A stretch of 64,000 bases of DNA from Thioalbus denitrificans (GTDB lineage: Bacteria > Pseudomonadota > Gammaproteobacteria > DSM-26407): assembly GCF_003337735.1 (NCBI RefSeq), contig NZ_QPJY01000012.1:1-64000 (forward strand), read 5' to 3'. Of the stretch, positions 5,296 through 61,375 are shown one piece after another. The stretch's first letter is position 1, and each line of letters begins with the position of its first letter. The notes beneath the pieces are model-generated. The model was not told where the DNA came from. It did no database searches and was given only the letters and a program-made list of their open reading frames with translations. A program made the position numbers and the translations under genes.

Positions 5296-5296
<1 letters not shown>
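4601..5296 (-). CDS. urtE: Urea ABC transporter ATP-binding subunit UrtE
   Basis: A 231-residue ABC ATPase of the branched-chain-amino-acid/urea type, the second ATPase of the urea importer. Walker A GRNGVGKTT near residue 35, signature LSGGQQQQLAIGRAL and Walker B LLILDEP are all intact, and the phrase EPNEGIQPNIV is characteristic of UrtE. The start ATG shares one base with the urtD stop (TGATG), showing translational coupling. It is the last gene of urtABCDE. I see no clear intrinsic terminator in the ~230 bp downstream. Confidence 0.95.
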
Positions 5297-6131
<835 letters not shown>

Positions 6132-6135
<4 letters not shown>

Positions 6136-7229: not shown

Positions 7230-7232
7230 GGC

Positions 7233-9002: not shown

Positions 9003-9098
9003 GGACGTTGTGTGCCGTGTGCTATCGATGACTTCAGCGGGAATCACCGCCGGAAAGGGATCCTCCGGCCACCGCTCAACCAGCGCCGGAACAGGGAA

Positions 9099-9120
9099 CG
9101 GACGCCCTCCCTGGCGTCCG
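9099..9120 (-). promoter_or_regulatory. Intercistronic hairpin between urtA and urtB
   Basis: A perfect 8-bp stem (CGGACGCC / GGCGTCCG) around a 6-nt loop lies just after the urtA stop codon. There is no U-run after it on the minus strand, so it does not look like a full terminator. Placed after a binding-protein gene, it more plausibly protects the urtA message from 3' decay and lets UrtA be made in excess over the membrane subunits. Inference from position and shape only. Confidence 0.5.
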
Positions 9121-9132
9121 CAGGGCGCCGGA

Positions 9133-10434: not shown

Positions 10435-10499
10435 GTAACCCCCATACCGGTGTGTGGTCGTTGGTGAAGCAGCCGGGTCGTGCCCGTCGCAAACGGGAT

Positions 10500-10515
10500 T
10501 GCATGCACCATGCCA
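10500..10515 (-). promoter_or_regulatory. Sigma-54 (-24/-12) promoter of urtABCDE
   Basis: On the minus strand the bases read TGGCATGGTGCATGCA. This matches the sigma-54 consensus TGGCAC-N5-TTGC with the invariant GG and GC ten bases apart; there is one mismatch in the -24 half (T for C) and one in the -12 half (A for T). The start site would be near 10489, giving a leader of about 55 nt. NtrC-type sites lie about 100-160 bp upstream, the usual enhancer distance. Confidence 0.75.
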
Positions 10516-10589
10516 ATCGGCAGGCGGGCGGCCGCAACCCGCGCGGATGCGCCGGAACCGGGCCCCGCCCGTGCCGCAACGGCACCCGC

Positions 10590-10606
10590 TGCACCGCCGC
10601 CGTGCA
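10590..10606 (-). promoter_or_regulatory. NtrC-type operator 1 upstream of urtA
   Basis: TGCACC-GCCGC-CGTGCA matches the NtrC consensus TGCACC-N5-GGTGCA with a single mismatch. It overlaps operator 2 by four bases, giving a tandem pair as in strong NtrC enhancers. Confidence 0.65.
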
Positions 10607-10619
10607 TCCGCGCGGTGCA
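10603..10619 (-). promoter_or_regulatory. NtrC-type operator 2 upstream of urtA
   Basis: TGCATC-CGCGC-GGTGCA differs from the NtrC consensus at one position. Its centre lies about 120 bp before the predicted transcription start. Confidence 0.65.
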
Positions 10620-10643
10620 CGCATCGGGCTGGTGCGCGCGCAC

Positions 10644-10660
10644 CGCACCCCCACGGTGCG
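10644..10660 (-). promoter_or_regulatory. NtrC-type operator 3 upstream of urtA
   Basis: CGCACC-CCCAC-GGTGCG holds a perfect GCACC-N5-GGTGC core, about four helical turns from operator 2. Three sites in 70 bp would allow assembly of the NtrC oligomer that activates sigma-54 polymerase. Confidence 0.6.
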
Positions 10661-10691
10661 GCCCTGCTCCGCCCGCACCAGTACCGCGCAT

Positions 10692-10718
10692 AAAAAAACC
10701 GCGCCTTCGCGGGCGCGG
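10692..10718 (-). terminator. Intrinsic terminator of the urease operon
   Basis: On the minus strand a 7-bp G+C stem (CCGCGCC / GGCGCGG, 6-nt loop) is followed by seven T residues. It lies about 20 bp after the ureG stop codon and insulates urtA from urease transcription. Confidence 0.88.
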
Positions 10719-10740
10719 CTGCGGGCGACGGGATGGCGGC

Positions 10741-11361
10741 TCAGGCCGCCTGTTCCAGCAGACCCTGGCGGACGATGAACTCCACCACCGCCTCCAGCCC
10801 CGTGCCGGTCTTGAGGTTGGTGAAGACGAAGGGTCGCTCGCCGCGCATGCGCCGCGCGTCCCGGTCCATCACCTCCAGGGAGGCGCCGACGTAGGGGGCG
10901 AGATCGATCTTGTTGATCACCAGCAGGTCCGAGCGGGTGATGCCGGGCCCGCCCTTGCGCGGAATCTTGTCGCCGGCGGAGACGTCGATCACATAGATCG
11001 TCAGGTCCGAGAGCTCGGGGCTGAAGGTGGCGCTCAGGTTGTCGCCGCCGCTCTCCACCAGCACCAGGTCGAGCTGCGGGAAGCGCCGCCCCAGTTCGGC
11101 CACCGCGGCCAGGTTCATGGAGGCGTCCTCGCGGATGGCGGTGTGGGGACAGCCGCCGGTCTCCACGCCGATGATGCGCTCGGACTCCAGGGCCTCGTGA
11201 CGAATGAGGAACTCCGCGTCCTCGCGCGTATAGATGTCGTTGGTCACCACCGCGATCTCGAACCGCTCGCGCAGGACCCGGCACAGGGCCGCCAGCAGCG
11301 CCGTCTTGCCGGAACCCACCGGGCCGCCCACGCCAACCCGCAATGTCTGCCTGTTTTCCAC
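10741..11361 (-). CDS. ureG: Urease accessory GTPase UreG
   Basis: A 206-residue SIMIBI-class GTPase that delivers nickel to the UreD-UreF-urease complex. P-loop GGPVGSGKT, the nickel-binding [12 protein letters not shown] motif, ESGGDNL and the base-recognition NKIDLA are all present. I chose the GTG that gives [13 protein letters not shown] because a GGAGG lies 7 bases before it and the length then equals the family norm; longer in-frame starts would overlap ureF. Last gene of ureDABCEFG, followed by a terminator. Confidence 0.95.
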
Positions 11362-11398
11362 CGTGTCGTCCTCCACTTCGATCGCGCCGCCGCTCCGA

Positions 11399-12106
11399 TC
11401 AGGAGCGGAACAGCCGCGTGTACTGGGTCTCGTGCAGGGCACCGGCCAGGGCGAGACCCGGAGCGCCCATTCCCATCACCGCCTCATCCAGCTCCAGCCC
11501 CCGCTCCACCGCGGCCGGCATCCGCCGCTGGAGCGCCGAGAGCAGGCGCTGGGCCGCCGTCTGTCCGAGCGGTATCAGCTTGGTGGCCGCCGCCACCTGG
11601 TTCTCCGTCCACGCCCACAGCAGCCCCAGCGCGCCGCTGCGCACCGGGATGCCCCAGCTCACCGCTGCCAGGGCGAACAGGGTGGCGAAGCCGGCATCAC
11701 CGCGTCCGGCCCAGGCCCGGGCCCGCTCCTCGCCCAGGTCGGCGAGCAGTCGCGCCAGGGCGGCGCCCAGGTGGCGATCCTCGGCCTGCAGCTCGGCGCT
11801 CTCGCGCACCGCCCCCAGCCAGGCGTTCCAGTATTCCACCTCCGGCTCGGCCGCTTCGCGCCAGGCCCGGTGCAGCCGGGCGAAGACCGGAACGTCGGCG
11901 CGGGCGAGGCTGTGCTCCAGCAGCCCGCCGATCCACTCGCCCGCGCTGCGCTCGTCCGTCACCCAGCCCGCCTCGACGGCCCATTCCAGCCCCTGGGAGT
12001 AGGCGAAGGCGCCCACCGGCAGCGCGGGACTGGTGAGTTGCAGCAGGCGCAGCAGGGCGGCTTCGCCGGCCACGTCCGCCGGTTCTGGCTCAGACCAGGC
12101 GCACAT
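11399..12106 (-). CDS. ureF: Urease accessory protein UreF
   Basis: About 235 residues, all-helical UreF family member that binds UreD and gates UreG during nickel insertion. Conserved phrases are [21 protein letters not shown] near the N-terminus and YTRLFRS at the very C-terminus. The chosen ATG lies within the end of ureE (17-base overlap); no clear Shine-Dalgarno is seen, so the exact start is uncertain. Confidence 0.92.
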
Positions 12107-12560
12107 GCACGTAGTCGTGATTGTGCGCATGCCCGTGGCCGCCGCCGTAGGCGCCCCCCTCGGGCTCGAACGGTGCGATCTCGTTCACCACTTCCAGCCC
12201 CAGCTCGCGCAGCATGTCGTCGAGCACGTGGTCGGTTGCGTAGCGCACCCAGGCGGTCTCGATCTGCAGCGCCACGTGGCGGTTGCCGAGGTGATAGCAG
12301 GCCCGGGCCAGCAGCAGCGGATCCCGGCTGCGGGCGGTGGAGACGCGCTCCGGGGCCGCGCAGACGCGGATGACCCGCCCGCTCTCGTCGCGCAACAGGT
12401 CGCCGTCGCAGAGCTGCGTGCCCCGCGGCAGCATCAGCCCCACGTTCTCGCCGTTGTCCAGCTGCACCGGCATGCGGCTCTTCACCCGCAGCTCGTAGGG
12501 CAGCGTGAGGGTCACTTCGGGCTGTTCCGGCGTCCCGAGCCGTTCCGTCACTCGCAGCAT
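12090..12560 (-). CDS. ureE: Urease accessory nickel chaperone UreE
   Basis: A 156-residue nickel-binding chaperone. The N-terminal beta-rich domain is followed by the metal domain with the conserved YHLGNRH motif, and the C-terminus is His-rich (GGGHGHAHNHDY), typical of UreE proteins that store several nickel ions. GGGAGGA lies a few bases before the ATG. It sits 28 bp after ureC. Confidence 0.94.
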   Translation of the reverse strand: MLRVTERLGTPEQPEVTLTLPYELRVKSRMPVQLDNGENVGLMLPRGTQLCDGDLLRDESGRVIRVCAAPERVSTARSRDPLLLARACYHLGNRHVALQIETAWVRYATDHVLDDMLRELGLEVVNEIAPFEPEGGAYGGGHGHAHNHDYVHVRLV

Positions 12561-12588
12561 CTGGATATCCTCCCGGGGCCGACCCCGG

Positions 12589-14292
<1,704 letters not shown>

Positions 14293-14299
14293 GGCCGCC

Positions 14300-14614
14300 T
14301 CATCCCTCCAGCTCGCCCATCACCCGGGCGTTGAACCCGTACACCCGCCTCCGGCCGGCATAGGCCACCAGCTCCACCTCCCGCTCCTGCCCCGGCTCGA
14401 AGCGCACGGCGGTGCCGGCGGGAATGTTGAGCCGGAAGCCGCGGGCGGCTTCGCGGTCGAAGGCCAGCGCCGGGTTGGTCTCGTGGAAGTGGTAGTGGGA
14501 TCCCACCTGGATGGGCCGGTCCCCGGTATTGGCCACGGTCACCCGCAGCGTGGGGCGCCCGGCGTTGATCTCGATCCCGCCCTCGGCGGCCACGATTTCG
14601 CCTGGAATCATCAT
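14300..14614 (-). CDS. ureB: Urease beta subunit
   Basis: A 104-residue structural subunit; the conserved [15 protein letters not shown] stretch and the opening PGEI are diagnostic. Separate ureA, ureB and ureC genes are the common bacterial layout, unlike the fused forms of Helicobacter. Confidence 0.96.
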
Positions 14615-14622
14615 CCGTCTCC

Positions 14623-14925
<303 letters not shown>

Positions 14926-14976
14926 CACTCCTCCTCTTCATGTTCCCGGCCCCGCCCGGAGGCGCGGGTCCCCGCT

Positions 14977-15825
14977 TCAGGTGTTCCAGATCCGCGGCGC
15001 GCACGCCGGCCGCCCCAGCAGCGCCGGGCGCAGCACCCGCCAGGCGGCCTCGAAACAGCGCCGGGCGCGCGCGGTGGAACCGCCCAGGTAGCGGCACACC
15101 AGCACCTCTTCCAGCTGGGTGACAGTGAACAGGTCGCCGGGCGCGTCCGCGCCCACCGCCTCCCGCACGCTCCGATCCAGTCCCGCAACGTTGCCGACGG
15201 CGGCGAGGCTGCCGATCACCGGCGCGCCGCGCAGCCCCCAGGCCGCCGACTGGAACGGGGTTCCCGCCTCCAGGTCGAGCCGCTCCAGGTAGAGGGGACG
15301 GCCGTTGCGCCACAGCTCGAGGCGCTGGCGCAGCCGGCCGCGGGCGAACGCCTCGCCCGCCGCCGGGCGCCCCAGGCAGGTGATCTCCCAGCCCAGGAAG
15401 CGGGCGTCCCCGGCCAGGTCCACCCGGGTCCCGCTCTCCACCCGGGCACCGTCGTAGACGATGTTCTCCTGCGGCAGCCACTCCAGCGCCGCCCCCGCCT
15501 CCAGCTCCAGCCGTACCGCCTGGCTCGCGGTCGGCCCGCCGCTGCGGTAGAACTTGCCGGCGGCCGGCGCGGTCAGCAGCACCCCGGAGCGCGCGGCGGC
15601 CCGCACCTGCAGCCGCAGGCGGTCGCCCCCCACCACCCCGCCCGGCGGGTGCAGCAGGTAGACGTGGCAGACGCCCGGCTCGGGGTGGAAGGTGCGCTGC
15701 ACCAGCAGCGGGCCGCGGTGGCGCCGCTCGGCCAGCACGCTGCGCTCCCCCCGGCGCTCGAAACCAAGGGTCAGCGTTCCCAGCCAGCCGGACTCCGCCT
15801 CCGCCACCCTGGCCACGGCCGTCAT
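14977..15825 (-). CDS. ureD: Urease accessory protein UreD
   Basis: A 282-residue scaffold that binds apo-urease and recruits UreF and UreG. Recognised from TFHPEPGVCHVYLLHPPGG, GGDRLRL, APAAGKFYRS and WLPQENIVYDGA. It is the first gene of the urease operon and lies about 50 nt after the predicted sigma-54 start site. A CGGAG lies nine bases before the ATG. Confidence 0.93.
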   Translation of the reverse strand: MTAVARVAEAESGWLGTLTLGFERRGERSVLAERRHRGPLLVQRTFHPEPGVCHVYLLHPPGGVVGGDRLRLQVRAAARSGVLLTAPAAGKFYRSGGPTASQAVRLELEAGAALEWLPQENIVYDGARVESGTRVDLAGDARFLGWEITCLGRPAAGEAFARGRLRQRLELWRNGRPLYLERLDLEAGTPFQSAAWGLRGAPVIGSLAAVGNVAGLDRSVREAVGADAPGDLFTVTQLEEVLVCRYLGGSTARARRCFEAAWRVLRPALLGRPACAPRIWNT

Positions 15826-43683: not shown

Positions 43684-44646
43684 ATGTCCAGCAAGCATCC
43701 CATCATCGCGGTGACCGGCTCCTCGGGCGCCGGCACCACCACCGTCCGCGCGGTGTTCGAGGACATCTTCAAGCGCGAGGCGGTCAACGCCGTGTGCGTG
43801 GACGGCGAGAGCTTCCGCCGCTATGACCGCGACACCATGCGCGCGGCGTTCCGGGCATCGGTGGGCGAGGGACGGCCCATCAGCCACTTCGGGCCCGAGG
43901 CGAACCTGCTGGACCGGCTCGAGGGGCTGTTCCGCGAGTACTCGCGCACCGGCACCGGCCTCATCCGCCGCTATGCGGGCACCGCCGCGCAGGCCGAGGC
44001 GCTGGACGTGCCGGAGGGCAGCTTCACCCGCTGGGCGGAAATCTGCGACGGCACCGATCTGCTCTTCTACGAGGGGCTGCACGGGGGCTGCATCGAGGCC
44101 ACCTGGTCCCACCGCCACATGAGCCCCTCCCACAACCCGTTCGTCATCCGCGAACGCCACCGGCTGGAGACCCGCTACGACACCGGCATCGACGTGGCCC
44201 AGTGGGTGGACCTGCTCATCGGCGTCGTGCCGAGCATCAACCTGGAGTGGATCCAGAAGATCCACCGCGACACCACCCTCAAGGGCGCCTCGGCGGAGGC
44301 GGTAGTGGGCACCATCATGCGCCGGCTGCCCGACTACATCCGCTACATCACGCCCCAGTTCTCGCTCACCGACATCAACTTCCAGCGCGTGCCGCTGGTG
44401 GACACCTCCAATCCCTTCATCGCCCGCGACGTGCCCTCGCTGGCCGAGAGCATCCTGGTGATCCGCTTCCGCGAGCCCAAGCGGTTCGACTTCCCCGAGT
44501 TGCTGCAGCGGATTCCCAATGCCTTCATGTCCCGCCCCAACACCCTGGTGGTGCCGGGCGGCGAAATGGAGCACGCCCTGCGGGTCATCTGCACCCCGCT
44601 GGTCCACGAACTGGTGGAGCGCATGCGCCACAGCCGGGAGCTGTGA
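43684..44646 (+). CDS. prk: Phosphoribulokinase
   Basis: A 320-residue class I (proteobacterial) phosphoribulokinase making ribulose 1,5-bisphosphate for RuBisCO. P-loop GSSGAGTTT is at residues 12-20; DGESFRRYDRD, SHFGPEANLLDRLE, FYEGLHGG and WSHRHMSPSHNPFVI are family hallmarks. It shows that the host has a Calvin cycle; no RuBisCO gene is in the window. It faces the rnfD-like gene, with hairpins between them. Confidence 0.95.
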   Translation: MSSKHPIIAVTGSSGAGTTTVRAVFEDIFKREAVNAVCVDGESFRRYDRDTMRAAFRASVGEGRPISHFGPEANLLDRLEGLFREYSRTGTGLIRRYAGTAAQAEALDVPEGSFTRWAEICDGTDLLFYEGLHGGCIEATWSHRHMSPSHNPFVIRERHRLETRYDTGIDVAQWVDLLIGVVPSINLEWIQKIHRDTTLKGASAEAVVGTIMRRLPDYIRYITPQFSLTDINFQRVPLVDTSNPFIARDVPSLAESILVIRFREPKRFDFPELLQRIPNAFMSRPNTLVVPGGEMEHALRVICTPLVHELVERMRHSREL

Positions 44647-45891: not shown

Positions 45892-47484
45892 TTACCCGGC
45901 CTCGGAGACCGGCGCTGGACGATTCGCCCCGGTGCGGGTCAGGAGTGCGAACTCCATGCTGTCGGAGAGCGCCCGCCAGCTCGCCTCGATGATGTTGGGG
46001 CTGGCGCCCACCGTGGTCCAGCCGCGCTCCCCGTCGTGGAAATCGATGAGCACGCGGGTGGTGGCCGCGGTGCCCTTGTCGCTGTCCAGGATGCGCACCT
46101 TGTAGTCGGTGAGCCGGACCGTGGCCAGCTCCGGATAGACGTCGCACAGCGCCTTGCTCAGGGCATGGGCCAGGGCGTCCACCGGACCGTTGCCCTCGGC
46201 GGCGGTGAGCTTGAGCGCCCCCTCGATGCGCACCTTCACCGTGGCCTCGGAGAGCAGCCCGCGGCCGTGGCGCTGCTCGGTGAGCACCATGAAGTCGACC
46301 AGCTCGAAGGGCGGGGTGTAGTCGCGGCTCACCCGGTAGAGCATCAGGTCCACCGATGCCTCGGCCGCCTCGAAGGTGAAGCCCTCGTGCTCCAGTCGCT
46401 TGATCTGGTGCAGCACCCGCTGGGCGTCCTCGCGGTTGATCTCCAGCCCCCGGGAGCGGGCCTGGTAGACCAGGTTGCCGCGGCCGGAGAGCTCCGAGAC
46501 CACCGCACGGGTTTCGTTGCCCACCCGCTCCGGGTCGATGTGCTGGTAGGTGTCCACCGCCTTGAGCACCGCGGCCACGTGGATTCCACCCTTGTGGGCG
46601 AAGGCGCTGGCGCCCACGTAGGGCGCGTGGCTGTCGTGCTTGAGGTTGGCCAGCTCGGCGGCGAAGCGCGACAGGGTGGTGAGTCCGCGCAGCTGCTCGG
46701 CGCTCACCACCTGCAGCCCCATCTTCAGCTGCAGGTTGGGGATGATGGTGGTGAGGTTGGCGTTGCCGACCCGCTCGCCGTAGCCGTTCAGGGTGCCCTG
46801 CACCTGGGTGCAGCCGGCGCGCACCGCCGCCAGGGTGTTGGCCACCGCGCAGCCGCTGTCGTTGTGGACGTGGATGCCCAGCGGGACGCGGGTGCGGGCG
46901 CGCACCTCGGCCACGACCGACTCCACCTCCCAGGGCAGCGCGCCGCCGTTGGTCTCGCACAGCACCAGCGCGTCGGCCCCCGCCTCCTCGGCCGCCAGCA
47001 GCACCGCCAGGGCATAGGCGGGATTGGCCTTGTAGCCGTCGAAGAAGTGCTCGGCGTCCAGGAACACCTCCCTCCCCCGGGCCTTCATGTAGGCGACGCT
47101 GTCGCGCACCATGGCGAGGTTCTCCTCGCGGGTGGTGTCGAGCACGGCGTCCACGTGGTAGTCCCAGCTCTTGGCCACCAGCGTCACCACCGGGGTCTCG
47201 GCATCCAGCAGGGCCTGCAGGTTGGCATCGTCCTCGCAGCGGCCGTGCTTGCGCCGGGTGCTGCCGAAGGCGGCCACCTTCGCCTGCCTCAGCCCCAGGC
47301 TGCGGACCCGCGTGAAGAACTCGGCATCCTTGGGATTCGAGCCCGGCCACCCGCCCTCGATGTAGTGAACGCCGAACTCGTCGAGCCTCCGGGCCAGGGT
47401 GAGCTTGTCGTCGCACGAGAGCGAGATCTCCTCGCCCTGGGTGCCGTCGCGAAGGGTGGTGTCATAGATGAAGATGCGGGACAT
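45892..47484 (-). CDS. cimA: (R)-citramalate synthase
   Basis: A 530-residue LeuA-like enzyme that condenses acetyl-CoA with pyruvate to citramalate, the first step of threonine-independent isoleucine synthesis. The TIM barrel shows YDTTLRDGTQGEEIS and HVHNDSGCAVANTLAA; the C-terminal LeuA dimer/regulatory domain starts near residue 390. The opening phrase and length separate CimA from isopropylmalate and homocitrate synthases. AAGG precedes the ATG giving MSRIFIYD; an upstream ATG lacks a ribosome-binding site. Confidence 0.9.
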   Translation of the reverse strand: MSRIFIYDTTLRDGTQGEEISLSCDDKLTLARRLDEFGVHYIEGGWPGSNPKDAEFFTRVRSLGLRQAKVAAFGSTRRKHGRCEDDANLQALLDAETPVVTLVAKSWDYHVDAVLDTTREENLAMVRDSVAYMKARGREVFLDAEHFFDGYKANPAYALAVLLAAEEAGADALVLCETNGGALPWEVESVVAEVRARTRVPLGIHVHNDSGCAVANTLAAVRAGCTQVQGTLNGYGERVGNANLTTIIPNLQLKMGLQVVSAEQLRGLTTLSRFAAELANLKHDSHAPYVGASAFAHKGGIHVAAVLKAVDTYQHIDPERVGNETRAVVSELSGRGNLVYQARSRGLEINREDAQRVLHQIKRLEHEGFTFEAAEASVDLMLYRVSRDYTPPFELVDFMVLTEQRHGRGLLSEATVKVRIEGALKLTAAEGNGPVDALAHALSKALCDVYPELATVRLTDYKVRILDSDKGTAATTRVLIDFHDGERGWTTVGASPNIIEASWRALSDSMEFALLTRTGANRPAPVSEAG

Positions 47485-47636
47485 GATCGCCTTGCTGATG
47501 GTATCCATAAGAAAGATTTATATTCTGACAGCGAACCCCACCCCGTTGCCAGCACTTGTCCGCCCCCCCTGCCCGTGAGCGTCCCGAGCGGATAAACTTG
47601 TGCCCCGATTCTTCCAGCCCGGCACGGGATGCGAAC

Positions 47637-51565: not shown

Positions 51566-52558
51566 TCAGGCGAAGAAGCGCCGCTCGGCCTCGGCCGGCA
51601 TCGGGATGCCGGTGACCCGGGCCTTGCGCAGCAGATCCCAGAAGTAGCGGTAGGTGGCGCGGTCGTGGAGCTCGCCCTTGTACTGGATCGGGCCCCAGGA
51701 GACATCCTGGGCCGCCATCAGGATGTTGGCCGCGTCCTCCACCTCGCCGTAGTCGGGCTTCATGGCGTCCACGATGGGCTGGATCTGCGCCGGGTAGATG
51801 CTCCACATGCGCATGAAGCCGAACTCGTTGCGGGCGCGGGAGGCGTCCTGGTAGGTGGTGTAGGGGTTCTTGAGGTCCAGGGTCACGTTGTGGGCGGGCA
51901 CCACGCCGTTGGCGAGCGCCGCGGCCACCACCTCGGCCTTGGCCCGCCGCAGCAGCTCGTGGTCGAACTGACCGGGGCTGCGCATGGCGGCGGCGGGAAT
52001 GGCGCCATGGTGGCCGGAGACGAAGTCCATGAGGCCGAAATCGAGCACCTGCACCCAGGGGGTGGCGGCGATGGCCTGCACGTCGCGCAGCGCGCCGTGG
52101 GTCTCGATCAGCGCGTGCAGCGGGATTTCGCGCTTGATGCCGTTGCGGGCGGCCACCGCCTGGATGTACTCCACCATCTCGCGCAGGTGGTTGACGTCGG
52201 TGGTCTTGGGGATGGTGATGTAGGCGGTCACCTCGCCGAGCCCCTCCACCAGGATGTCCACGTCCTGCTTCCAGGCCGGGTGGCTGTAGTCGTGGATGCG
52301 CACGCCGGCCATCCTGAACTTGTTCCCGGCGCTGTTCTGCACCTGCACGATCATCTCGGCATGCTCGCGCTCCTTGCCCGCCGGGGCGCCGTCCTCGCAG
52401 TCGCAGGTGATGTCGAAGATGGGTCCGAGCTTCTCCTGCAGGGCCAGCGCCTTCTGGATCAGCTTCTCACTGCCGGCGAAGTGCTCGCAGGCGGCGATGA
52501 TGGGAAAGGGCTTCTCGCCGCCGAACAGGGCCTCACTGGGGTGTACCGCTTCGGTCAT
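51566..52558 (-). CDS. CitE/HpcH-type CoA-ester lyase 1
   Basis: A 330-residue HpcH/HpaI aldolase family protein. Predicted metal ligands Glu152 (HALIETHGAL) and Asp178 (DFGLMDFVSGHHG) and the CoA-contacting Arg87 are in place, so it should be an active lyase/aldolase on malyl-, beta-methylmalyl- or citramalyl-CoA. It diverges from a second lyase in the same cluster. The ATG giving MTEAVHPSEAL follows GGAGGAG by nine bases; its leader contains a 12-bp stem-loop. The precise substrate cannot be read from the sequence. Confidence 0.82.
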   Translation of the reverse strand: MTEAVHPSEALFGGEKPFPIIAACEHFAGSEKLIQKALALQEKLGPIFDITCDCEDGAPAGKEREHAEMIVQVQNSAGNKFRMAGVRIHDYSHPAWKQDVDILVEGLGEVTAYITIPKTTDVNHLREMVEYIQAVAARNGIKREIPLHALIETHGALRDVQAIAATPWVQVLDFGLMDFVSGHHGAIPAAAMRSPGQFDHELLRRAKAEVVAAALANGVVPAHNVTLDLKNPYTTYQDASRARNEFGFMRMWSIYPAQIQPIVDAMKPDYGEVEDAANILMAAQDVSWGPIQYKGELHDRATYRYFWDLLRKARVTGIPMPAEAERRFFA

Positions 52559-52983
52559 GATACGTGTCTCCTCCGCTCCGGGGGTTGCTCCCGGAATATC
52601 GATCCGAGCCGGCGCCACCGTCCCCTCGCGGGCGGTGGCGCCGGTGCCGGCAGGCTGAACGGTTTGATGCATAGCACAAAAAACCGGCTCAATGGAAGTC
52701 CCGCCGCGACTTTCCCGTGCCCCCGGGCGGGCCATCGCCTGCTCCGGGCCACACATATAACCAGTTGTTAATATTTCAATTAACCGACCGCCCAGCGCTT
52801 ACGCTTGCATCCGGGAGGGCGTTGGTCAATGATAACCGCTCCGCTGTTGCGATGCAGCATTTTCTTGACTACCATCCTCAGCTATCGAGGCAGGCAGGTG
52901 GGCGGCCTCCCCCGCGAACAACAACGACAGGGGCGGAGGAACAGCGTACCGCCTACACTGATGCGACACAGGGGAAGAATACG
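52559..52983. other. 425-bp divergent control region of the CoA-ester cluster
   Basis: No gene is supported. It contains the leader hairpin (52609-52644), an A+T-rich stretch at 52752-52785 with the small palindrome TAAC-CAGTT-GTTA, and a GGGGAAG ribosome-binding site for the rightward gene. Divergent promoters and a regulator site are expected here, but I cannot place them. Confidence 0.45.
52609..52644 (-). promoter_or_regulatory. 12-bp perfect stem-loop in the leader of CitE-like lyase 1
   Basis: CCGGCGCCACCG (52609-52620) and CGGTGGCGCCGG (52633-52644) pair perfectly around a 12-nt loop, about 50 nt before the start codon on the minus strand. There is no T-run. It could be an RNA switch-like hairpin, an attenuation element or a protein-binding palindrome. 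Confidence 0.6.
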
Positions 52984-54105
52984 ATGTACCAGACGGCGTA
53001 CCTCACCGACGTGACCGACGAGGCCGTTCTGGGCGATTTCTGGCCGGGCATACAGCTCTACTACCCGCCGGTGAAGTACTCCCCGGCGGCAGGCGTCTAC
53101 GAGGACCTCGAGACGGCCTCGCAGCGCATGAAGAAGCATGCCCACGCCACCAACGCCCACACGCTGCTGTTCGACCTGGAGGACGGCTGCCGGCAGAAGG
53201 CGCTGAGCCGCGAGCTGCTGCGCCAGGAGCTGCCGCAGTTCCCGCGCTCGGACGTGCAGATCGCCGTGCGCATCAACCCGTTCCGCACCGACGAGTACGA
53301 GAAGGACCTGGCCATGGTCCGCGATCTCGCCGATCACGTCGACGTGATCGTGCTGGCCAAGGCGGGCGAGGCCTACGGGGCCGCCGAGATCCGCGATCTC
53401 TCGGCCTGGCTCGAGGGCGTGAACAGCCGCATCACCATCCAACCCATCATCGAGCACCCCAAGTCGCTCAAGCTGGCCCCGGAGCTGATGCAGTACAGCA
53501 CGGTGAAACACGTGGTGTTCGGCATCCACGACTTCTCCAAGGCCATGGCCATCCACATCACCCCGGAGGGCTGGACCCAGGAGCTGAAGACCTACCTGGA
53601 CCTGCTGCTGTTCGAGGCGCGCATCCAGGGCAAGGGGGTAATCGGGGGCGTGGAGGTGCTCATCAACGAGACTCCCATGCCGGAGGATTTCGTGGAGATT
53701 CACGACGTGCGCCGCTGGCTCGACCTCCACGGCGAGACCGAGTCCCACGTGGTCTACCGCCACGCCTGCCACGAGGCGGCCATGGGGCTCACCGGCAAGC
53801 AGGTGATCCACCCCAACCACATCCACCTGTGCAAGGTGGCCTTCACCCCCGCGCCCAGCCAGGTCCAGCGCAACATCTCCATCCTGCGCGCGGCGGTGGA
53901 AGCCGACGCCCTGCTCGGCGGCGCCATTCGCTTCGAGGGCGAGATGCTCGACCCGCCCATGTTCGGCAAGGCCCTGCAGGGGCTGCTGCGGGCCCGGGCC
54001 CTGCGCGCGCTCAGCCAGGAGGACACCCAGTTCGCCCTGGACATCCTGAAGCAGCTGCCGATGCAGGTCATCCGGGAAAACTGGCCATACGGGACACTGC
54101 TCTGA
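52984..54105 (+). CDS. CitE/HpcH-type CoA-ester lyase 2
   Basis: A 373-residue HpcH/HpaI aldolase family protein with a complete site: the FDLEDG motif (63-68), Arg96 in VRINPF, Glu157 in PIIEHPKS and Asp183 in FGIHDFSKAM. The C-terminal ~80 residues are longer than in minimal CitE, as in malyl-CoA lyases. First gene of an apparent operon; its stop overlaps the acyl-CoA synthetase start (TGATG). Probable reaction: reversible Claisen cleavage of a malyl-CoA-type ester to glyoxylate plus acetyl- or propionyl-CoA. Confidence 0.8.
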   Translation: MYQTAYLTDVTDEAVLGDFWPGIQLYYPPVKYSPAAGVYEDLETASQRMKKHAHATNAHTLLFDLEDGCRQKALSRELLRQELPQFPRSDVQIAVRINPFRTDEYEKDLAMVRDLADHVDVIVLAKAGEAYGAAEIRDLSAWLEGVNSRITIQPIIEHPKSLKLAPELMQYSTVKHVVFGIHDFSKAMAIHITPEGWTQELKTYLDLLLFEARIQGKGVIGGVEVLINETPMPEDFVEIHDVRRWLDLHGETESHVVYRHACHEAAMGLTGKQVIHPNHIHLCKVAFTPAPSQVQRNISILRAAVEADALLGGAIRFEGEMLDPPMFGKALQGLLRARALRALSQEDTQFALDILKQLPMQVIRENWPYGTLL

Positions 54106-55739
54106 TGACGACCATGAACAGACCGCAATTCGAAGAGTGGACCTGGGAGGTCCCCGAGTACTTCAACATCGGCGTGGCCTGCAGCGACCGCCACCTGGGC
54201 ACGCCGACGGAGTCCGCCACGGCGATGATCGTGGAGGACGACCAGCTCGGCACCGGCACCTGCACCTTCCGGGAGCTCGCCGCCGCCACCTCGCGCTTCG
54301 CCCAGCTGCTGCGCAATCTCGGCGTGGAGACCGGCGAGCGGGTGCTGATCCGGCTGCCCAACTCGCTGGCCTACCCCACCGCCTTCCTCGGCGCCATGAA
54401 GCGCGGCGCCATCGCCGTGCCCACCTCCACCCTGCTGGTGGCCGAGGAGGTGCAGTACCTGGCGGAGGATTCCGGCGCCGCGGTGCTGGTGACCCACAAG
54501 ACCATGTGGCCCTCGCTGCGGGATAAGCTGGAGGACGCCGGCAGCCTGCGCCACGTGATCCTGTCCGGCCCGGGCGAGATGCCCGTCAGCGACCGCCTGG
54601 CGCTCCATGACCTGGACGCCGGACTGGCCGCCATCGACCGCTGGGAGCCGCCCCACGCCTCCCGCGCCGATGATCCCGCCTACCTGGTCTACACCTCCGG
54701 CACCACCGGCCACCCGAAGGGGGTGCTGCACGCCCACCGCGCCCTCATCGGCCGCCTGCCCGCCAGCCGCTACTGGTTCGACTTCCGGGACGGCGACCGC
54801 ATCATGCACTCGGGCAAGTTCAACTGGACCTACGTGCTCGGCTCGGGCCTGATGGACCCCCTCTACCACGGCATGACCGTCATCGTGCACGAGGGGAAGA
54901 ACGACGCCCATACCTGGCCGCGGCTGATCAGGAAGCACGGCTGCACCATCTTCATCGGCGTGCCCACCATCTACCGCCAGATCATCCAGAAGACCGACTA
55001 CTCGAAGGCCGACGTGCCGACGCTGCGCCACTGCATGAGCGCCGGCGAGCACCTCTCCGACGAGATGCTGCTGGCCTGGCGCGAGCGCTTCGGGATGGAT
55101 GTCTACGAGGCCATCGGCATGTCGGAGATCTCCTACTACATCTCCCAGAACAAGGGCATGCCCATCCGCCCCGGCGCGGCGGGCTTTCCGCAGCCGGGCC
55201 ACGACGTGCGCCTGCTGGACGCGGAGTTCAACGAGGTGCCCCAGGGCGAGGAGGGCATGATCGCCATCCGCGAGACCGACCCGGGGCTGTTCATCGAGTA
55301 CTGGAACCTGCCCGGGGAGACCGCCAAGGTGCGCCGCAACGGCTGGTTCCTGACCGGCGACTACGCGCGCCTGGACGAGGACGGCTACATCTGGTTCCTG
55401 GGCCGCCGCGACGACATCATCAACACCTTCGGCTTCCGCGTCTCGCCCCACGAGGTGGAGCGGGTGATGAAGACCCACCCCCAGGTGGCCGACTGCGTGG
55501 CCATCGGCCAGGACATCGGGCGTGACAAGACCCTGGTGGCGGCCTGCGTGATCCTCGCCCCCGGGGCGAAGGTGGACGCCGAGGCGCTGCTGGCCTTCGG
55601 CGAGCAGCACCTGGCAGGCTACAAGCGCCCCAAGCTGGTGCACATCCTCGAGGACTACCCGCGCACCAAGAACGGCAAGGTGATCCGCGGCAAGCTCAAG
55701 CAGATGCTCGAGGCGCGGACGGCGGAGAGCGCAAGATGA
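54105..55739 (+). CDS. AMP-forming acyl-CoA synthetase
   Basis: A 544-residue ANL-superfamily ligase. The P-loop YTSGTTGHPKG is at about 196-206, the Glu-containing A5 motif in YEAIGMSEISYY, and the hinge region in GRRDDIINTFGFRVSPHEVE; the catalytic Lys is in RTKNGKVIRG. It resembles the branch with acetate-, benzoate- and short-chain-acid ligases. In this operon it probably activates acetate, propionate or a C4-C5 dicarboxylate. Both ends overlap neighbours (TGATG and ATGA). Confidence 0.86.
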   Translation: MTTMNRPQFEEWTWEVPEYFNIGVACSDRHLGTPTESATAMIVEDDQLGTGTCTFRELAAATSRFAQLLRNLGVETGERVLIRLPNSLAYPTAFLGAMKRGAIAVPTSTLLVAEEVQYLAEDSGAAVLVTHKTMWPSLRDKLEDAGSLRHVILSGPGEMPVSDRLALHDLDAGLAAIDRWEPPHASRADDPAYLVYTSGTTGHPKGVLHAHRALIGRLPASRYWFDFRDGDRIMHSGKFNWTYVLGSGLMDPLYHGMTVIVHEGKNDAHTWPRLIRKHGCTIFIGVPTIYRQIIQKTDYSKADVPTLRHCMSAGEHLSDEMLLAWRERFGMDVYEAIGMSEISYYISQNKGMPIRPGAAGFPQPGHDVRLLDAEFNEVPQGEEGMIAIRETDPGLFIEYWNLPGETAKVRRNGWFLTGDYARLDEDGYIWFLGRRDDIINTFGFRVSPHEVERVMKTHPQVADCVAIGQDIGRDKTLVAACVILAPGAKVDAEALLAFGEQHLAGYKRPKLVHILEDYPRTKNGKVIRGKLKQMLEARTAESAR

Positions 55740-56671
55740 GCCCCCTGAACCCCAACTTCCCGAAAGTCCGCCCGCGCCGGACCATGCTCTACGTCTCCGG
55801 CGACAACCCGCGGCACCTGGAGAAGTCCCGCGAGCTGCCCGCCGACGCCCTGGTGTTCGACCTGCACGAGTCGACCGCCATGGAGCACAAGGCCCGTGCC
55901 CGCGACAACGTGGTGGCGGCCGTGGCGGCCGGCAACTTCATCGGCCAGGAGCTGGTGGTGCGCCCCAACCCGCTCAACAGCGAGCGGCTGGCCGAGGATC
56001 TCGACGCCATCGCCGCACTGCCCATCGACGCGGTGCTGTTCTCCGGCATCAACACCCGCGCCGACATGCTCAAGGCGGTGGCCATGCTCGACGCCGCCGG
56101 CGGCGAGCGGCTGCCGGTGATGATCATGGTGGAGTCGCCGCTGGCGGTGATGCACCTGGAGGAGATACTGACCGCCACCCGGCGCCTGTCCTGCGTGGTG
56201 GTGAGCACGGCCAACCTGTGCAACGGCCTGCGCATCAACGTCACGCCCGATCGCACCGGCCTGCTCACCATCCTCTCGCTGGTGGTGCTCGCGGCCCGGG
56301 CCCACAACGTCGGGGTCATCGACGGGGCGCACGTGGAGGTCAACGACGCCAAGGGCTGCGAGTTCGCCTGCCGCCAGGCGCGCGATCTGGGCTTCGACGG
56401 CAAGGCCGTCATCCACCCCGTGCAGCTGCCCTACACCAACGACACCTTCACCCCCAAGCCGAAGGAGGTGGAGAAGAAGCGCGCCATCATCACGGCCATG
56501 CAGGACGCCGAGGCCGAGGGGCGCCCCTATGCCGTGCTCGACGGCCGGCTGCTGCAGCCGGTGGAGCTCGAAGCCGCCCAGCGCTGCATCGCCATGTTCG
56601 AGGCCATCGAGGAGCGGGAGCAGGCCTTCAACCTCTGCCCGGGCATCTACTGCTCCACCCAGCAGGGCTGA
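55736..56671 (+). CDS. CitE-like protein 3 with altered metal site
   Basis: A 311-residue CitE/HpcH family protein. Arg76 (VVRPNPL), Glu133 (IMVESPLAV) and the late VIHPVQL motif are conserved, but the position of the second metal ligand is Asn160 (STANLCNGL) where lyases have Asp, and the FDLED motif reads FDLHES. It may use a different chemistry, act as a thioesterase or be a non-catalytic partner. It overlaps the synthetase gene by four bases. Confidence 0.78.
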   Translation: MSPLNPNFPKVRPRRTMLYVSGDNPRHLEKSRELPADALVFDLHESTAMEHKARARDNVVAAVAAGNFIGQELVVRPNPLNSERLAEDLDAIAALPIDAVLFSGINTRADMLKAVAMLDAAGGERLPVMIMVESPLAVMHLEEILTATRRLSCVVVSTANLCNGLRINVTPDRTGLLTILSLVVLAARAHNVGVIDGAHVEVNDAKGCEFACRQARDLGFDGKAVIHPVQLPYTNDTFTPKPKEVEKKRAIITAMQDAEAEGRPYAVLDGRLLQPVELEAAQRCIAMFEAIEEREQAFNLCPGIYCSTQQG

Positions 56672-56788
56672 GCCGGATCGCGCGCCACGGGGAAGGCCCC
56701 GCCCCGACGGGCTGCGCGGCCGCCCCCGATGGCTGATACACCCGCCGGCGCCGTCACGCCGGCCGGGGCCGAGAGACGAGGGAACCAC

Positions 56789-57856
56789 ATGTCGAAACAG
56801 TTCCAGGGCAATTTCTTCGAGGACTTCCGGCTCGGCCAGACGCTGAGGCACGGCACGCCGCGCACGATCACCGACGGGGACGCGGCGCTCTACATCGCGC
56901 TCACCGGCAGCCGCTTCCTGCTCCACTGCGCGACCCCGGCCGCCCACGCCATGGGCCTGCGCGAGAAGAACGTGGACGACCTGCTGGCCTTCCACGTGGC
57001 CTTCGGCAAGACCGTGCCCGAGGTCTCCCTCAACGCCGTGGCCAACCTCGGCTATGCCGACGTGCGCTTCCTGCGCCCGGTCTACGTGGGCGACACCCTC
57101 AGCGCCGAGAGCACCGTCATCGGCCTGAAGGAGAACTCCAGCGGCAGGAACGGCAACGTCTACGTGCGCTCCACCGCCTGCAACCAGTACGGCGAGGAGG
57201 TGCTCTCCTGGATCCGCTGGGTGATGGTGCACAAGAGGGATCCGGCCAGCCCGGCACCGGAGACGGTGCTGCCGGAGCTGCCCGATCACGTGAGCGTGGA
57301 TCGCCTGCCGATCCCCGCGGGGCTGGACGCCGCCGACTTCGACACCACCCTCACCGCCTCCCCCCACCTGTGGGAGGACTACGGCGTGGGCGAGCGCATC
57401 GACCACATCAACGGCATGACCGTGGACGAGTCGGACCACACGCTGGCCACCAAGCTCTACCAGAACAACGCCCGGGTCCACTTCGAGGCGCACATGATGA
57501 GCGGCTCGCGCTTCGGCCGGCGGCTCATGTACGGCGGCCACGTCATCTCCGTGTGCCGGGCGCTCTCCTACAACGGCCTGGCCAACGCCATCGGCATCGC
57601 CGCCATCAACGGCGGCGCCCACTGCAACCCGAGCTTCGCCGGCGACACCTTCTACGCCTGGAGCGAAATCGCCGACAAGTGGGAGCTCCCGGGGCGCGCC
57701 GACCTGGGCGCCCTGCGCGTGCGCACCTACGGGGTCAAGAACATGGACACCCGCGAGCTCGGCTCGCCGAAGGTTGAGGTCGAGGGGAAGAGCCGCTACC
57801 ACGAAAGCGTGGTGCTGGACCTGGACTACACTGTGCTGATGCCGCGCCGCGGCTGA
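56789..57856 (+). CDS. mch: Mesaconyl-CoA hydratase (beta-methylmalyl-CoA dehydratase)
   Basis: A 355-residue double-hotdog MaoC-type hydratase, the same length as known Mch proteins. The long conserved runs GNFFEDFRLGQTLRHGTPRT, DDLLAFHVAFGKTVPEVSLN and SWIRWVMVHKRDPA agree with Mch/Mcd of the 3-hydroxypropionate bicycle and the ethylmalonyl-CoA pathway. It interconverts (2R,3S)-beta-methylmalyl-CoA and mesaconyl-CoA. The ATG giving MSKQFQGNFF follows GAGGGA; the gene lies 117 bp after CitE-like 3. Confidence 0.88.
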   Translation: MSKQFQGNFFEDFRLGQTLRHGTPRTITDGDAALYIALTGSRFLLHCATPAAHAMGLREKNVDDLLAFHVAFGKTVPEVSLNAVANLGYADVRFLRPVYVGDTLSAESTVIGLKENSSGRNGNVYVRSTACNQYGEEVLSWIRWVMVHKRDPASPAPETVLPELPDHVSVDRLPIPAGLDAADFDTTLTASPHLWEDYGVGERIDHINGMTVDESDHTLATKLYQNNARVHFEAHMMSGSRFGRRLMYGGHVISVCRALSYNGLANAIGIAAINGGAHCNPSFAGDTFYAWSEIADKWELPGRADLGALRVRTYGVKNMDTRELGSPKVEVEGKSRYHESVVLDLDYTVLMPRRG

Positions 57857-58085: not shown

Positions 58086-60181
58086 ATGCTGCACAGCCTG
58101 TATATCGCCGGGGCGGAGCCCGGCAGTGGCAAGTCCATCGTGGTCCTGGGGATGATGGAGAACCTCACCGCCACGGTGGAACGGGTCGGATTCTTCCGCC
58201 CCATCATCCCCCGCGACGGCGTGCACGATCCCCTCCTCCACCTGGTCAGCGGCCGCTACGAGCTGCCCGCGGGCGCGGAGGCGCTCTATGGCTGCACCGA
58301 GGATGTCGCCCGCCACTACCTGACCCACGGCGACTACGACGGCCTGCTGAAGCTCATCCTGCACAAGTACAAGGCGCTGGAGGAGTGCTGCGACCTGGTG
58401 GTCTGCGCCGGCACCGACTACTCCCGCGTCACCTCGGCCCTGGAGCTGGATTTCAACGCCGACCTGGCCAACAACTTCGGCTGCCTGCTGATGCCGGTCA
58501 TCAAGGGCTTCGAGCGCAACGGCGAGGAGATAGCCGATGCCGTGCAGGTGCTGGAGGAGACCCTGGAGGACCGCGGCTGCGAACTGCTCGCCACCGTGGT
58601 CAACCGCGTGGACCCCGGCCGCATCGAAACGGTCTGCGGGCACCTGAAGCAGACCCTGAAGAGCGGAATTCCCTGCTTCCTGCTGCCCGAGCACCCCTCG
58701 CTGGAGAAGCCCACCGTGGGCGAAATCGCCCGCACCCTCGACGCCCGGGTGCTCACCGGCGACGCCGACGCCCTGAACCACGAGGTGCTCGCCTACAAGG
58801 TGGCGGCGATGGAAGTGCCCGACTTCCTCGACTACGTGGAGGAGGGCAGCCTCATCATCACCCCCGGCGACCGCTCCGACATCATCCTCGGCTCCATCAC
58901 CGCCGACGTCTCCAGCAACTACCCGAAGATCGCCGGGCTGCTGCTGAGCGGCGGGCAGGTGCCGGCCCCCCAGGTGCAGCGGCTGCTGGGGGGGCTCAAC
59001 CACAACGCCATCGCCCTGCTCAGCGTCACCACCGACACCTTCACCACGGCGCTCAACGTCTCCGCCGTGGAGGGCACCATCCTCCCCGGCGACAACCGCA
59101 AGATCGCCGCCGCGCTCGGCATCTTCGAGAAGAACGTGGATCTCGGCGTGCTGCAGCAGCGCATCTCCGCCGACCACACCCGGCGCATCACGCCGCTGGT
59201 GTTCGAGTACGAGCTTATCCAGCGCGCCCGCTCGAGACGCATGCACATCGTCCTGCCCGAGGGCACCGACGAGCGCGTCCTGCGGGCGGCGGAGATCCTG
59301 CAGCTGCGCGGGGTCTGCGAGCTCACCCTGCTGGGCGACCCGGGGAAGATCGGCCAGCGCGTCGCCACCCTCGGCCTGAAGCTCGAGGGGGTGAACATCG
59401 TCGATCCCCAGACCTCCGACCGCCGCCCCGCCTACGCCCAGGCCTACTACGAGCTGCGCCGGCACAAGGGCATCTCCAAGGAGCTGGCCTTCGACACCCT
59501 GGCCGACGTGAGCTACTTCGGCACCCTGATGGTGGCCCACGGCGACGCCGACGGCATGGTCTCCGGCGCGGCCCATACCACCCAGCACACCATCCGCCCG
59601 GCCTTCGAGGTGATCCGCACCGTGCCCGGCACCTCGCTGGTCTCCAGCGTCTTCTTCATGTGCCTGGAGGACCGGGTGCTGGTCTACGGCGACTGCGCGG
59701 TGAATCCCAACCCCAACGCCGAGCAGCTCGCCGACATCGCCGTCAGCTCCGCCAACACCGCGGCCATGTTCGGCATCGAGCCGCGGGTGGCGATGCTCTC
59801 CTACTCCACCGGCGAGTCGGGCAAGGGCGCCGACGTGGAGAAGGTGCGCGAGGCGGTCGCCATCGCCCACAGCCGCCGCCCCGACCTGATGCTGGAGGGG
59901 CCCATCCAGTACGACGCCGCCGTCGACGCCGGCGTGGCCCGCTCCAAGCTGCCCGACAGCCGGGTGGCCGGCCACGCCACGGTGTTCGTCTTCCCCGATC
60001 TGAACACCGGCAACAACACCTACAAGGCGGTGCAGCGCTCCGCCGGGGCGGTGGCCATCGGGCCGGTCCTGCAGGGGCTGAACAAGCCGGTGAACGATCT
60101 CAGCCGCGGCTGCACCGTGACCGACATCGTCAACACCGTGGCCATCACCTGCATCCAGGCCCAGGCCAGCGGAGGCGAACG

Positions 60182-60185
<4 letters not shown>
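58086..60185 (+). CDS. pta: Phosphate acetyltransferase, long form
   Basis: A 699-residue Pta: an N-terminal P-loop domain (AGAEPGSGKSIVVLG), a DRTGG-type middle domain (about 220-340) and the catalytic phosphotransacetylase domain (from RARSRRMHIVLPEGTDERVL). It interconverts acetyl-CoA and acetyl phosphate. The long type is usual in gammaproteobacteria. GAGG precedes the ATG; its stop overlaps ackA (ATGA). 229 bp separate it from mch, so a separate promoter is possible. Confidence 0.94.

Positions 60186-61375
<1,190 letters not shown>

Follow-up and report, generated by a model that had tools for sequence, protein, structure and literature searches.

Gene content of the locus

We describe here a group of five genes found in a stretch of 64,000 nucleotides from the genome of Thioalbus denitrificans (the stretch is called the window, and gene coordinates are given on it; the complete genome, 4.14 Mb, is designated G000). 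They code for three CitE-type proteins (A, B and C), an acyl-coenzyme A (CoA) ligase of the adenosine monophosphate (AMP)-forming type (Lig) and a mesaconyl-C1-CoA hydratase (Mch). On balance we lean towards reading this module as the distinctive part of the citramalate cycle, by which acetyl-CoA would be assimilated without isocitrate lyase. The features of the locus are the following (aa, amino acids):

51566..52558, minus strand: A, CitE-like lyase of 330 aa (PF03328; 525 bits to 3qqw), candidate beta-methylmalyl-CoA (and malyl-CoA) lyase, partner of Mch
52559..52983, no strand: intergenic region between the divergent A and B, from the gene coordinates; presumed site of both promoters
52984..54105, plus strand: B, CitE-like protein of 373 aa (PF03328), candidate enzyme forming or cleaving (S)-citramalyl-CoA
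54105..55739, plus strand: Lig, AMP-forming acyl-CoA ligase of 544 aa (PF00501 and PF13193), candidate mesaconate-CoA ligase
55736..56671, plus strand: C, apparently degenerate CitE paralogue of 311 aa (PF03328), with a thioesterase-like lid in most relatives
56789..57856, plus strand: Mch, mesaconyl-C1-CoA hydratase / beta-methylmalyl-CoA dehydratase of 355 aa (PF19315; 4e3e, 8hgn)
58086..60185, plus strand: pta, phosphate acetyltransferase (PF01515), acetate-activation neighbour
60182..61375, plus strand: ackA, acetate kinase (PF00871), acetate-activation neighbour

The original prediction, made from the letters of the window, had described an operon of three CitE/HpcH proteins, an AMP-forming ligase and an Mch-type hydratase, joined by overlaps of 1-4 bases and placed next to pta and ackA. 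The five proteins were confirmed by their Pfam domains (the matches of A, B and C to PF03328 and of Mch to PF19315 were all over the cut-off), and both acetate genes do follow Mch. The single operon had to be abandoned, since A is encoded on the minus strand and points away from B, with 425 bp between the two, and the layout is that of a four-gene run plus a divergent gene. The overlaps hold for B/Lig (1 base) and Lig/C (4 bases) but not for the divergent A or for Mch, which starts 117 bp after C if the ATG at 56789 is used and 57 bp after it with the upstream ATG at 56729. The starts of A (52558) and B (52984) lie within longer open reading frames (ORFs) but are likely to be right, and codon-usage calling concurs. 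A search of the 4.14 Mb with PF03328 gave A, B and C as the only matches over the cut-off, with a fourth weak match below it.

Catalytic residues of the CitE-type proteins

Malyl-CoA lyases have a catalytic set made of a Glu-Asp pair, an Arg, two metal ligands (Glu and Asp) and a lid Asp, the last being replaced, by Glu, only in the Rhodobacter malyl-CoA thioesterase group (PMC3832036). We located these positions by alignment to the malyl-CoA lyase 4l9y and counted them in 65 of 66 A, 84 B and 67 of 68 C sequences, translations with stops being dropped. In the window they are E55, D56, R87, E152, D178 and D299 in A and E66, D67, R96, E157, D183 and D323 in B. All six are kept in 63 of the 65 relatives of A (the other two have gaps) and in every one of the 84 of B. 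The equivalent positions in C are H44, E45, R76, E133, N160 and Q274, so that two active-looking lyases accompanied by an altered third one, as had been anticipated, is indeed what the residues indicate.

The changes in C follow a pattern. The Glu of the Glu-Asp pair is lost in 61 of the 67 relatives; the metal Asp is kept in 59 and is Asn in eight, including the window protein. The lid position is never Asp: it is Glu in 60, as in the malyl-CoA thioesterase group, and Gln in the seven others (the window and loci L011, L015-L018 and L079), all of which also have Asn at the metal Asp. Judged by these residues, C is a degenerate CitE paralogue with what looks like a thioesterase lid in most hosts and with further degeneration in the window lineage. 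In view of the Gln lid of the window protein and the usual loss of the pair Glu, we do not assign C to the malyl-CoA thioesterase group. A function as malyl-CoA or citramalyl-CoA thioesterase may be taken as a lead only, and in the window lineage C may be inactive or a structural partner. The structural model of C (predicted local distance difference test, pLDDT, 76) has malyl-CoA lyases as its nearest folds, with a template modelling (TM) score of about 0.6. A gene for a hotdog-fold thioesterase was found near the module in eight loci (L029, L032, L038, L042, L043, L073, L082 and L092), and in L082 it adjoins A; such a protein is a possible stand-in for the hydrolysis step.

A matched the structure 3qqw, a "putative citrate lyase" (525 bits) listed for Ralstonia eutropha JMP134 (PMC3832036). 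For B the best PDB profile match was the human CLYBL, 5vxc, with 53 bits versus 51 bits for the malyl-CoA lyase 5ugr. Mch gave 461 bits to 4e3e and 397 bits to 8hgn (named beta-methylmalyl-CoA dehydratase) with phmmer, while for Lig, identified by PF00501 and PF13193, the best 25 NCBIfam models listed were all below their cut-offs.

Conservation and distribution of the module

Among 369 genomes sampled from the class, B was found in five, including the window genome and one of the same genus, and all five carry the five genes together (with two intervening genes in one of them), a co-occurrence that exceeds chance. A wider search gave 211 relatives of B in named genomes, from which 80 loci were kept and three further ones added, making 83 (L010, a duplicate of L015, and L014, downstream of the window, are excluded from the counts). 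All 83 have Lig 3' of B in the same orientation, and within reach of this pair are C in 67, Mch in 66 and A in 65. At 85% identity the B proteins of the 83 loci form just 12 clusters, so that these counts are not independent; each of A, C and Mch is represented in 10 of these clusters. The hosts include Kangiellaceae, Methylophilaceae (some with genomes of merely 1.5-1.7 Mb), Gallionellaceae, Thiobacillus, Sulfuricella, Sedimenticola and Methylophaga, among others. No relative of B was found in viral contigs, and the plasmid search with B gave only distant CitE proteins, below 60% identity. Two loci labelled as coming from Candidatus Methylopumilus metagenome-assembled genomes (MAGs), L059 and L060, carry the cluster of prpB and the module; the methylcitric acid pathway has been reported absent from all Ca. 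Methylopumilus strains (PMC6794327).

Forty genomes with the module were searched in full (those of 36 of the 80 loci, hand-picked across taxa, plus G000, G061, G160 and G246). Many of them are MAGs, so the absences reported below are soft. A homologue of Mch is present in all 40, as a contig-edge fragment only in G386; where the locus had no Mch nearby, it was found elsewhere in the genome.

The module divides into two halves, B-Lig(-fumA) and C-Mch-A, and each keeps its own company. In the Methylophilaceae locus L051, prpC-prpB-A-Mch-C is divergent from GntR-malic enzyme-sdhCDAB-B-Lig-class I fumarase (sdhC and sdhD being named from position and size), and in Methylobacillus (L112, L113) prpD-prpC-prpB-A-Mch-C, mqo, acs, GntR, malic enzyme, sdh, B, Lig and fumA are packed in about 24 kb. 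The betaproteobacterial loci L119 and L120 have C-Mch-A-prpB-prpC as a single run. Over the 83 loci, many of them truncated by contig ends, the neighbours counted were GntR (30), fumA (26), malic enzyme (20), sdhA (17), prpB (13) and acs (9). Each of the nine acs genes is located 5' of B-Lig in the opposite orientation, in eight cases at about 0.7 kb or less (two of the nine were checked by NCBIfam). In 13 of the 34 genomes with PrpB, Mch is 1.0-1.3 kb from it, leaving space for A in between, and in 10 genomes a class I fumarase is 0.8-1.0 kb from PrpB.

On Cupriavidus oxalaticus and Sphingobium plasmids, which have no B, Lig or C beside them, homologues of A and Mch are also paired (Mch homologue 51-52% identical), and this connects A with the beta-methylmalyl-CoA step. 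The pairing is not universal, since homologues of A without Mch are found on plasmids of Cupriavidus pinatubonensis, Azoarcus and Variovorax (in the last, by annotation only, no MaoC-type gene is named there). On the C. pinatubonensis plasmid the homologue (L123, 9001-9996) comes after a pyruvate carboxylase gene instead of Mch. A PrpB-like protein, below the PrpB cut-off, is encoded beside prpE in Sedimenticola and a Chromatiales MAG (L109, 6216-7082, 257 bits; L118, 2870-3745); our guess is that it could be an oxaloacetate decarboxylase of the phosphoenolpyruvate mutase superfamily regenerating pyruvate.

Alternative routes in the genomes with the module

Isocitrate lyase was found in none of the 40 genomes, in which the matches were PrpB-like partials below 68 bits. 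In the class sample it is present in 117 of 369 genomes by a strict rule (best E of at most 1e-25 or at least four pieces, based on the 186 rows listed), in 125 by a looser one (at least two pieces, E below 1e-17) and in 92 if E of at most 1e-40 is demanded. Crotonyl-CoA carboxylase/reductase (Ccr) was not over the cut-off in any of the 40 (it was in one of 14 control genomes). Methylaspartate ammonia-lyase was barely over it in four, with about 27 bits and no strong match; these are unconvincing because the frames, of 432-507 aa, have the length of enolases and were read as such. No type III CoA-transferase (CoA_transf_3, the family of mesaconyl-CoA CoA-transferase, Mct) was found in 25 of the 40, and G000 has one partial match of 155 bits. 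Membership of the 3-hydroxypropionate bi-cycle is therefore not supported (Meh and malonyl-CoA reductase were not searched). The original prediction had allowed for a partial or different pathway, and this gains support, as does the link that it drew between the set and the joining of glyoxylate and propionyl-CoA.

Marker genes for the conversion expected after propionyl-CoA are in contrast nearly always there. PrpB is over the cut-off in 34 of the 40, and of those without it G000, G369 and G372 have a methylmalonyl-CoA mutase match of more than 800 bits and G371 a contig-edge mutase fragment beside prpE; a marker gene (PrpB or mutase) for the conversion of propionyl-CoA to succinate is thus present in 38. 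Malate synthase was found in six and class I fumarase in 39, G000 included, as well as in five of the 14 controls. The placement of the fumarase, in the B-Lig neighbourhood, near PrpB or near mcm, is stronger evidence than its presence.

Remaining steps in the window genome

Contig C15 of G000 (L108) carries the run oadA-oadB-fumA-(AEC-type transporter)-prpE-mcm-pccB-pccA-meaB-epimerase. Its fumarase is of class I and lies 3.9 kb from mcm, and prpE codes for a propionate/acetate-CoA ligase (the best model was the propionate one, below its cut-off). A search for propionyl-CoA carboxylase had been proposed as a check, and pccB-pccA answer it. On contig C2 (L122, G000:C2:170000-187000), GlcDEF, a tartronate semialdehyde reductase-like and an aldehyde dehydrogenase-like protein and malate synthase G are encoded in one run; GlcE and GlcF were over their cut-offs, and GlcD and the reductase just under. 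In addition, a second, IcmF-like mutase frame is found in C2:745885-747435 (1129 aa, 430 bits), distant from the mcm cluster.

By these gene assignments the module, C15 and C2 would cover most of the steps of the citramalate cycle as drawn in PMC8307300. There are candidate genes for citramalate formation, mesaconase, mesaconate activation, hydratase and lyase, and genes in G000 for carboxylase, epimerase, mutase, fumarase, oxaloacetate decarboxylase and malate synthase. The hydratase and lyase genes are assigned by homology and linkage (Mch in 40 of 40 genomes, A with intact residues), while oadAB and malate synthase G provide for pyruvate regeneration and malate formation.

A CimA-type citramalate synthase is encoded in the window at 45892-47508 (minus strand; TIGR00977, 708 bits, over the cut-off), 4 kb from A, and probably serves isoleucine biosynthesis. 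We rejected it as the source of citramalate, because EC 2.3.1.182 gives the R form whereas class I fumarases use the S form (PMC8307300, PMC4682846).

A proposed citramalate cycle

Gene content, conservation, linkage, catalytic residues and the absence of the alternatives searched are observed, and from them we infer the substrates of Lig, B and A, an activity of C, the mesaconase activity of the fumarase and the direction of flux. B would join acetyl-CoA and pyruvate to give citramalyl-CoA, to be hydrolysed to (S)-citramalate by B itself, by an intact C or by another thioesterase. A class I fumarase acting as mesaconase would convert (S)-citramalate to mesaconate, a role that we assign by analogy with the class I fumarases reported to hydrate mesaconate to (S)-citramalate (PMC4682846). 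Lig would then spend ATP to make mesaconyl-C1-CoA, Mch would hydrate it to beta-methylmalyl-CoA and A would split this into propionyl-CoA and glyoxylate. Propionyl-CoA would reach succinate through the methylcitrate cycle in most hosts and through carboxylase and mutase in the window lineage, and the methylcitrate cycle, malic enzyme or oxaloacetate decarboxylase would restore pyruvate. Glyoxylate and acetyl-CoA would give malate, by malate synthase in the window genome and, in hosts lacking this enzyme, by A plus a thioesterase.

We consider this direction, from acetyl-CoA and pyruvate to propionyl-CoA and glyoxylate, more likely than the reverse, because acetate activation adjoins B-Lig and the enzymes acting after propionyl-CoA adjoin Mch-A, and because in the reverse direction two of the routes encoded in the same runs would compete for propionyl-CoA. 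An ATP-spending Lig suits it too: in our own argument, an unfavourable condensation would be pulled by hydrolysis and repaid by ATP. The presence of Mch in 40 of 40 genomes, although the known sources of mesaconyl-CoA (Ccr, methylaspartate ammonia-lyase and mostly the CoA-transferase) are missing, also supports the cycle. The assimilation of acetate, one of the roles originally suggested, is thus supported. The other, salvage of glyoxylate derived from glycolate, is disfavoured: in the window genome, a conventional cluster of glycolate oxidase and malate synthase G gives photorespiratory glyoxylate its own outlet; the module is present in Methylophilaceae, for which absence of the Calvin cycle is reported (PMC6794327); and its partners elsewhere are those of acetate activation and propionyl-CoA disposal (no glycolate oxidase search was made near the module in other genomes). 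In view of the C2 cluster and the same report, we rejected glycolate or phosphoglycolate salvage as a general role. The window also contains a phosphoribulokinase gene (43684-44646), consistent with a Calvin-cycle organism.

Several observations weigh against the cycle as proposed. The condensation to citramalyl-CoA is unfavourable (PMC3832036), and Arcobacter butzleri, which has a like cluster, did not grow on acetate or propionate (PMC2147049). As regards direction, the constant pairing of B and Lig (83 of 83) is a difficulty, and the two could equally be a citramalate (or malate) ligase and its lyase. The acs adjacency is restricted to two of the 12 B clusters, and class I fumarase is weak evidence by its presence, being common in bacteria. 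In genome G370, PrpB, mutase and class I fumarase are all missing; G403 lacks PrpB and has only an IcmF-like frame. The absence of isocitrate lyase is confounded by phylogeny, and G386 and G392 pass the looser rule for this enzyme, through matches that score about 254 bits against the PrpB model and were read as paralogues of PrpB. At the protein level, the AlphaFold model of B is poor (pLDDT 56), C of the window lineage has neither the metal Asp nor a lid acid, which speaks against it as the candidate thioesterase, and for none of the five proteins did we find a measured activity in the open-licence PMC literature.

The most serious rival, which we regard as possible but rather unlikely, is that the same enzymes run in the opposite direction. 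Glyoxylate and propionyl-CoA would be converted to acetyl-CoA and pyruvate by A, Mch, C, fumarase, Lig and B through beta-methylmalyl-CoA, mesaconyl-CoA, mesaconate, citramalate and citramalyl-CoA, with C releasing mesaconate and Lig making citramalyl-CoA. This would amount to the second half of the bi-cycle run through free acids, as a salvage route for glyoxylate or propionate. It is the direction preferred by the authors of the A. butzleri genome, in which a ligase is fused to a CitE domain (PMC2147049); the cleavage of citramalyl-CoA is favoured (PMC3832036), and the invariable B-Lig pair is what would be expected if Lig produces the substrate of B. However, it spends ATP on a downhill conversion, competes with the methylcitrate cycle genes of the same runs and leaves the acs and pta-ackA neighbours unexplained. 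Furthermore, the window genome already has GlcDEF-GlcB for glycolate, and the module is found in Methylophilaceae, reported without Calvin cycle (PMC6794327; but one MAG of the family has nearly all of its genes, PMC9802188).

Two other explanations seem to us improbable. An external C5 dicarboxylate (mesaconate, citramalate or methylmalate) might be activated by Lig and split by the lyases into propionyl-CoA and glyoxylate or acetyl-CoA and pyruvate. The settings of the plasmid A-Mch pairs would fit, among CoA-transferase, acyl-CoA dehydrogenase and tricarboxylate-transporter genes in C. oxalaticus and among racemase and beta-oxidation genes in Sphingobium. So would the AEC-type transporter gene between fumA and prpE in G000 and, in Kangiellaceae, an EamA-like membrane protein (eight loci) and an RND-like pump (11 loci) near the module, both named by eye. 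Nevertheless, inspection by eye of the 70 ORF clusters shared most widely by the loci revealed no dicarboxylate transporter, and the module is present in Methylophilaceae genomes as small as 1.5-1.7 Mb. Still less probable, we think, is that Lig and B are a malate-CoA ligase and a malyl-CoA lyase producing acetyl-CoA and glyoxylate from malate, A and Mch then combining glyoxylate with propionyl-CoA. The promiscuity of malyl-CoA lyases (PMC3832036) and the fumarase and malic enzyme near B-Lig in Methylophilaceae are in its favour, but mesaconyl-CoA would have no outlet and the methylcitrate linkage would go unexplained.

Relation to known pathways and clusters

The citramalate cycle was reportedly proposed in 1997 for Rhodospirillum rubrum by Ivanovsky, Krasilnikova and Berg. 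By the scheme of a 2021 review, in which steps of the cycle still have no function number and its distribution is described as unclear (PMC8307300), the module would share with it the intermediates and final products predicted here, the use of pyruvate as co-substrate, a putative mesaconase step, Mch and the cleavage of beta-methylmalyl-CoA. In the window genome, the conversion of propionyl-CoA to succinyl-CoA, oxaloacetate decarboxylase and malate synthase are shared as well (PMC8307300). It would differ in the use of an ATP-dependent ligase where the classical scheme has a CoA-transferase, and of a CitE-type enzyme in the place of citramalate synthase (PMC8307300). Besides, the organisms are others, and most of them use the methylcitrate cycle instead of carboxylase and mutase.

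Similar clusters have been described before. In the 2007 genome of A. butzleri, citramalate-cycle chemistry was sketched for one cluster, ab1917-ab1921, where by the published description CitE, ligase, hydratase, CitE and class I fumarase lie together, and the genome also has methylcitrate genes (PMC2147049). It differs from the module in the fused ligase and in the direction favoured, and the account of the cluster draws no link to methylotrophs or autotrophs (PMC2147049). In Methylotenera and relatives a "methylcitric acid cycle" has been listed as prpCBD, cyl1, maoC, cyl2, gntR, mdh, sdhABCD, cyl3, prpE and fum, an order that agrees with that of L051, where A, Mch, C, B and Lig take the corresponding places (PMC4109929, PMC3728764). 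There it is annotated with prpE, and its role and metabolite are stated to be unknown (PMC4109929, PMC3728764). Methylophilaceae are described as having no glyoxylate shunt, ethylmalonyl-CoA pathway or Calvin cycle (PMC6794327). We would give about even chances to a wider proposal, in which the module, spread over obligate methylotrophs, iron oxidisers, sulfur autotrophs and Kangiellaceae, supplies the propionyl-CoA for the Methylotenera methylcitrate cycle; the role of the strongly expressed cluster would then be the assimilation of acetyl-CoA and not of external propionate.

As in the C5 half of the 3-hydroxypropionate bi-cycle, found in partial form, with Mct and Meh, in Kentron and Thiosymbion, Mch and CitE-type lyases would link glyoxylate and propionyl-CoA with pyruvate and acetyl-CoA (PMC6593406). 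The difference is that our proposal involves free acids and a ligase, in genomes most of which gave no protein of the Mct family. With the ethylmalonyl-CoA pathway and the methylaspartate cycle the module would share the tail, from mesaconyl-CoA via beta-methylmalyl-CoA to propionyl-CoA and glyoxylate, but the key enzymes at the head of both were not found in the 40 genomes.

The present analysis adds that the module is widespread, falls into two parts and occurs without the other routes. It also contributes the pattern of catalytic residues in the three CitE-type proteins, the pairs of A with Mch and the C15 cluster that would complete the cycle in the window genome. We found no open-licence PMC paper connecting the module's breadth, residue pattern, A-Mch pairs and C15 completion. 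If the citramalate cycle is the correct reading, a gene set would be assigned to a cycle proposed without pinned-down genes, in a form that is directly testable, and autotrophs and methylotrophs lacking the glyoxylate shunt would have a route for acetate uptake. The annotation of prpE, citrate lyase and MaoC would be corrected and a natural route of acetyl-CoA assimilation would be added for engineering; the module may also explain the well-expressed pathway of unknown purpose in lake methylotrophs.

Apart from the module, the window contains a run of urease genes (about 4601-15825, minus strand) adjoining an apparent ABC-type urea/amide transporter, according to a by-eye reading of the predicted proteins.

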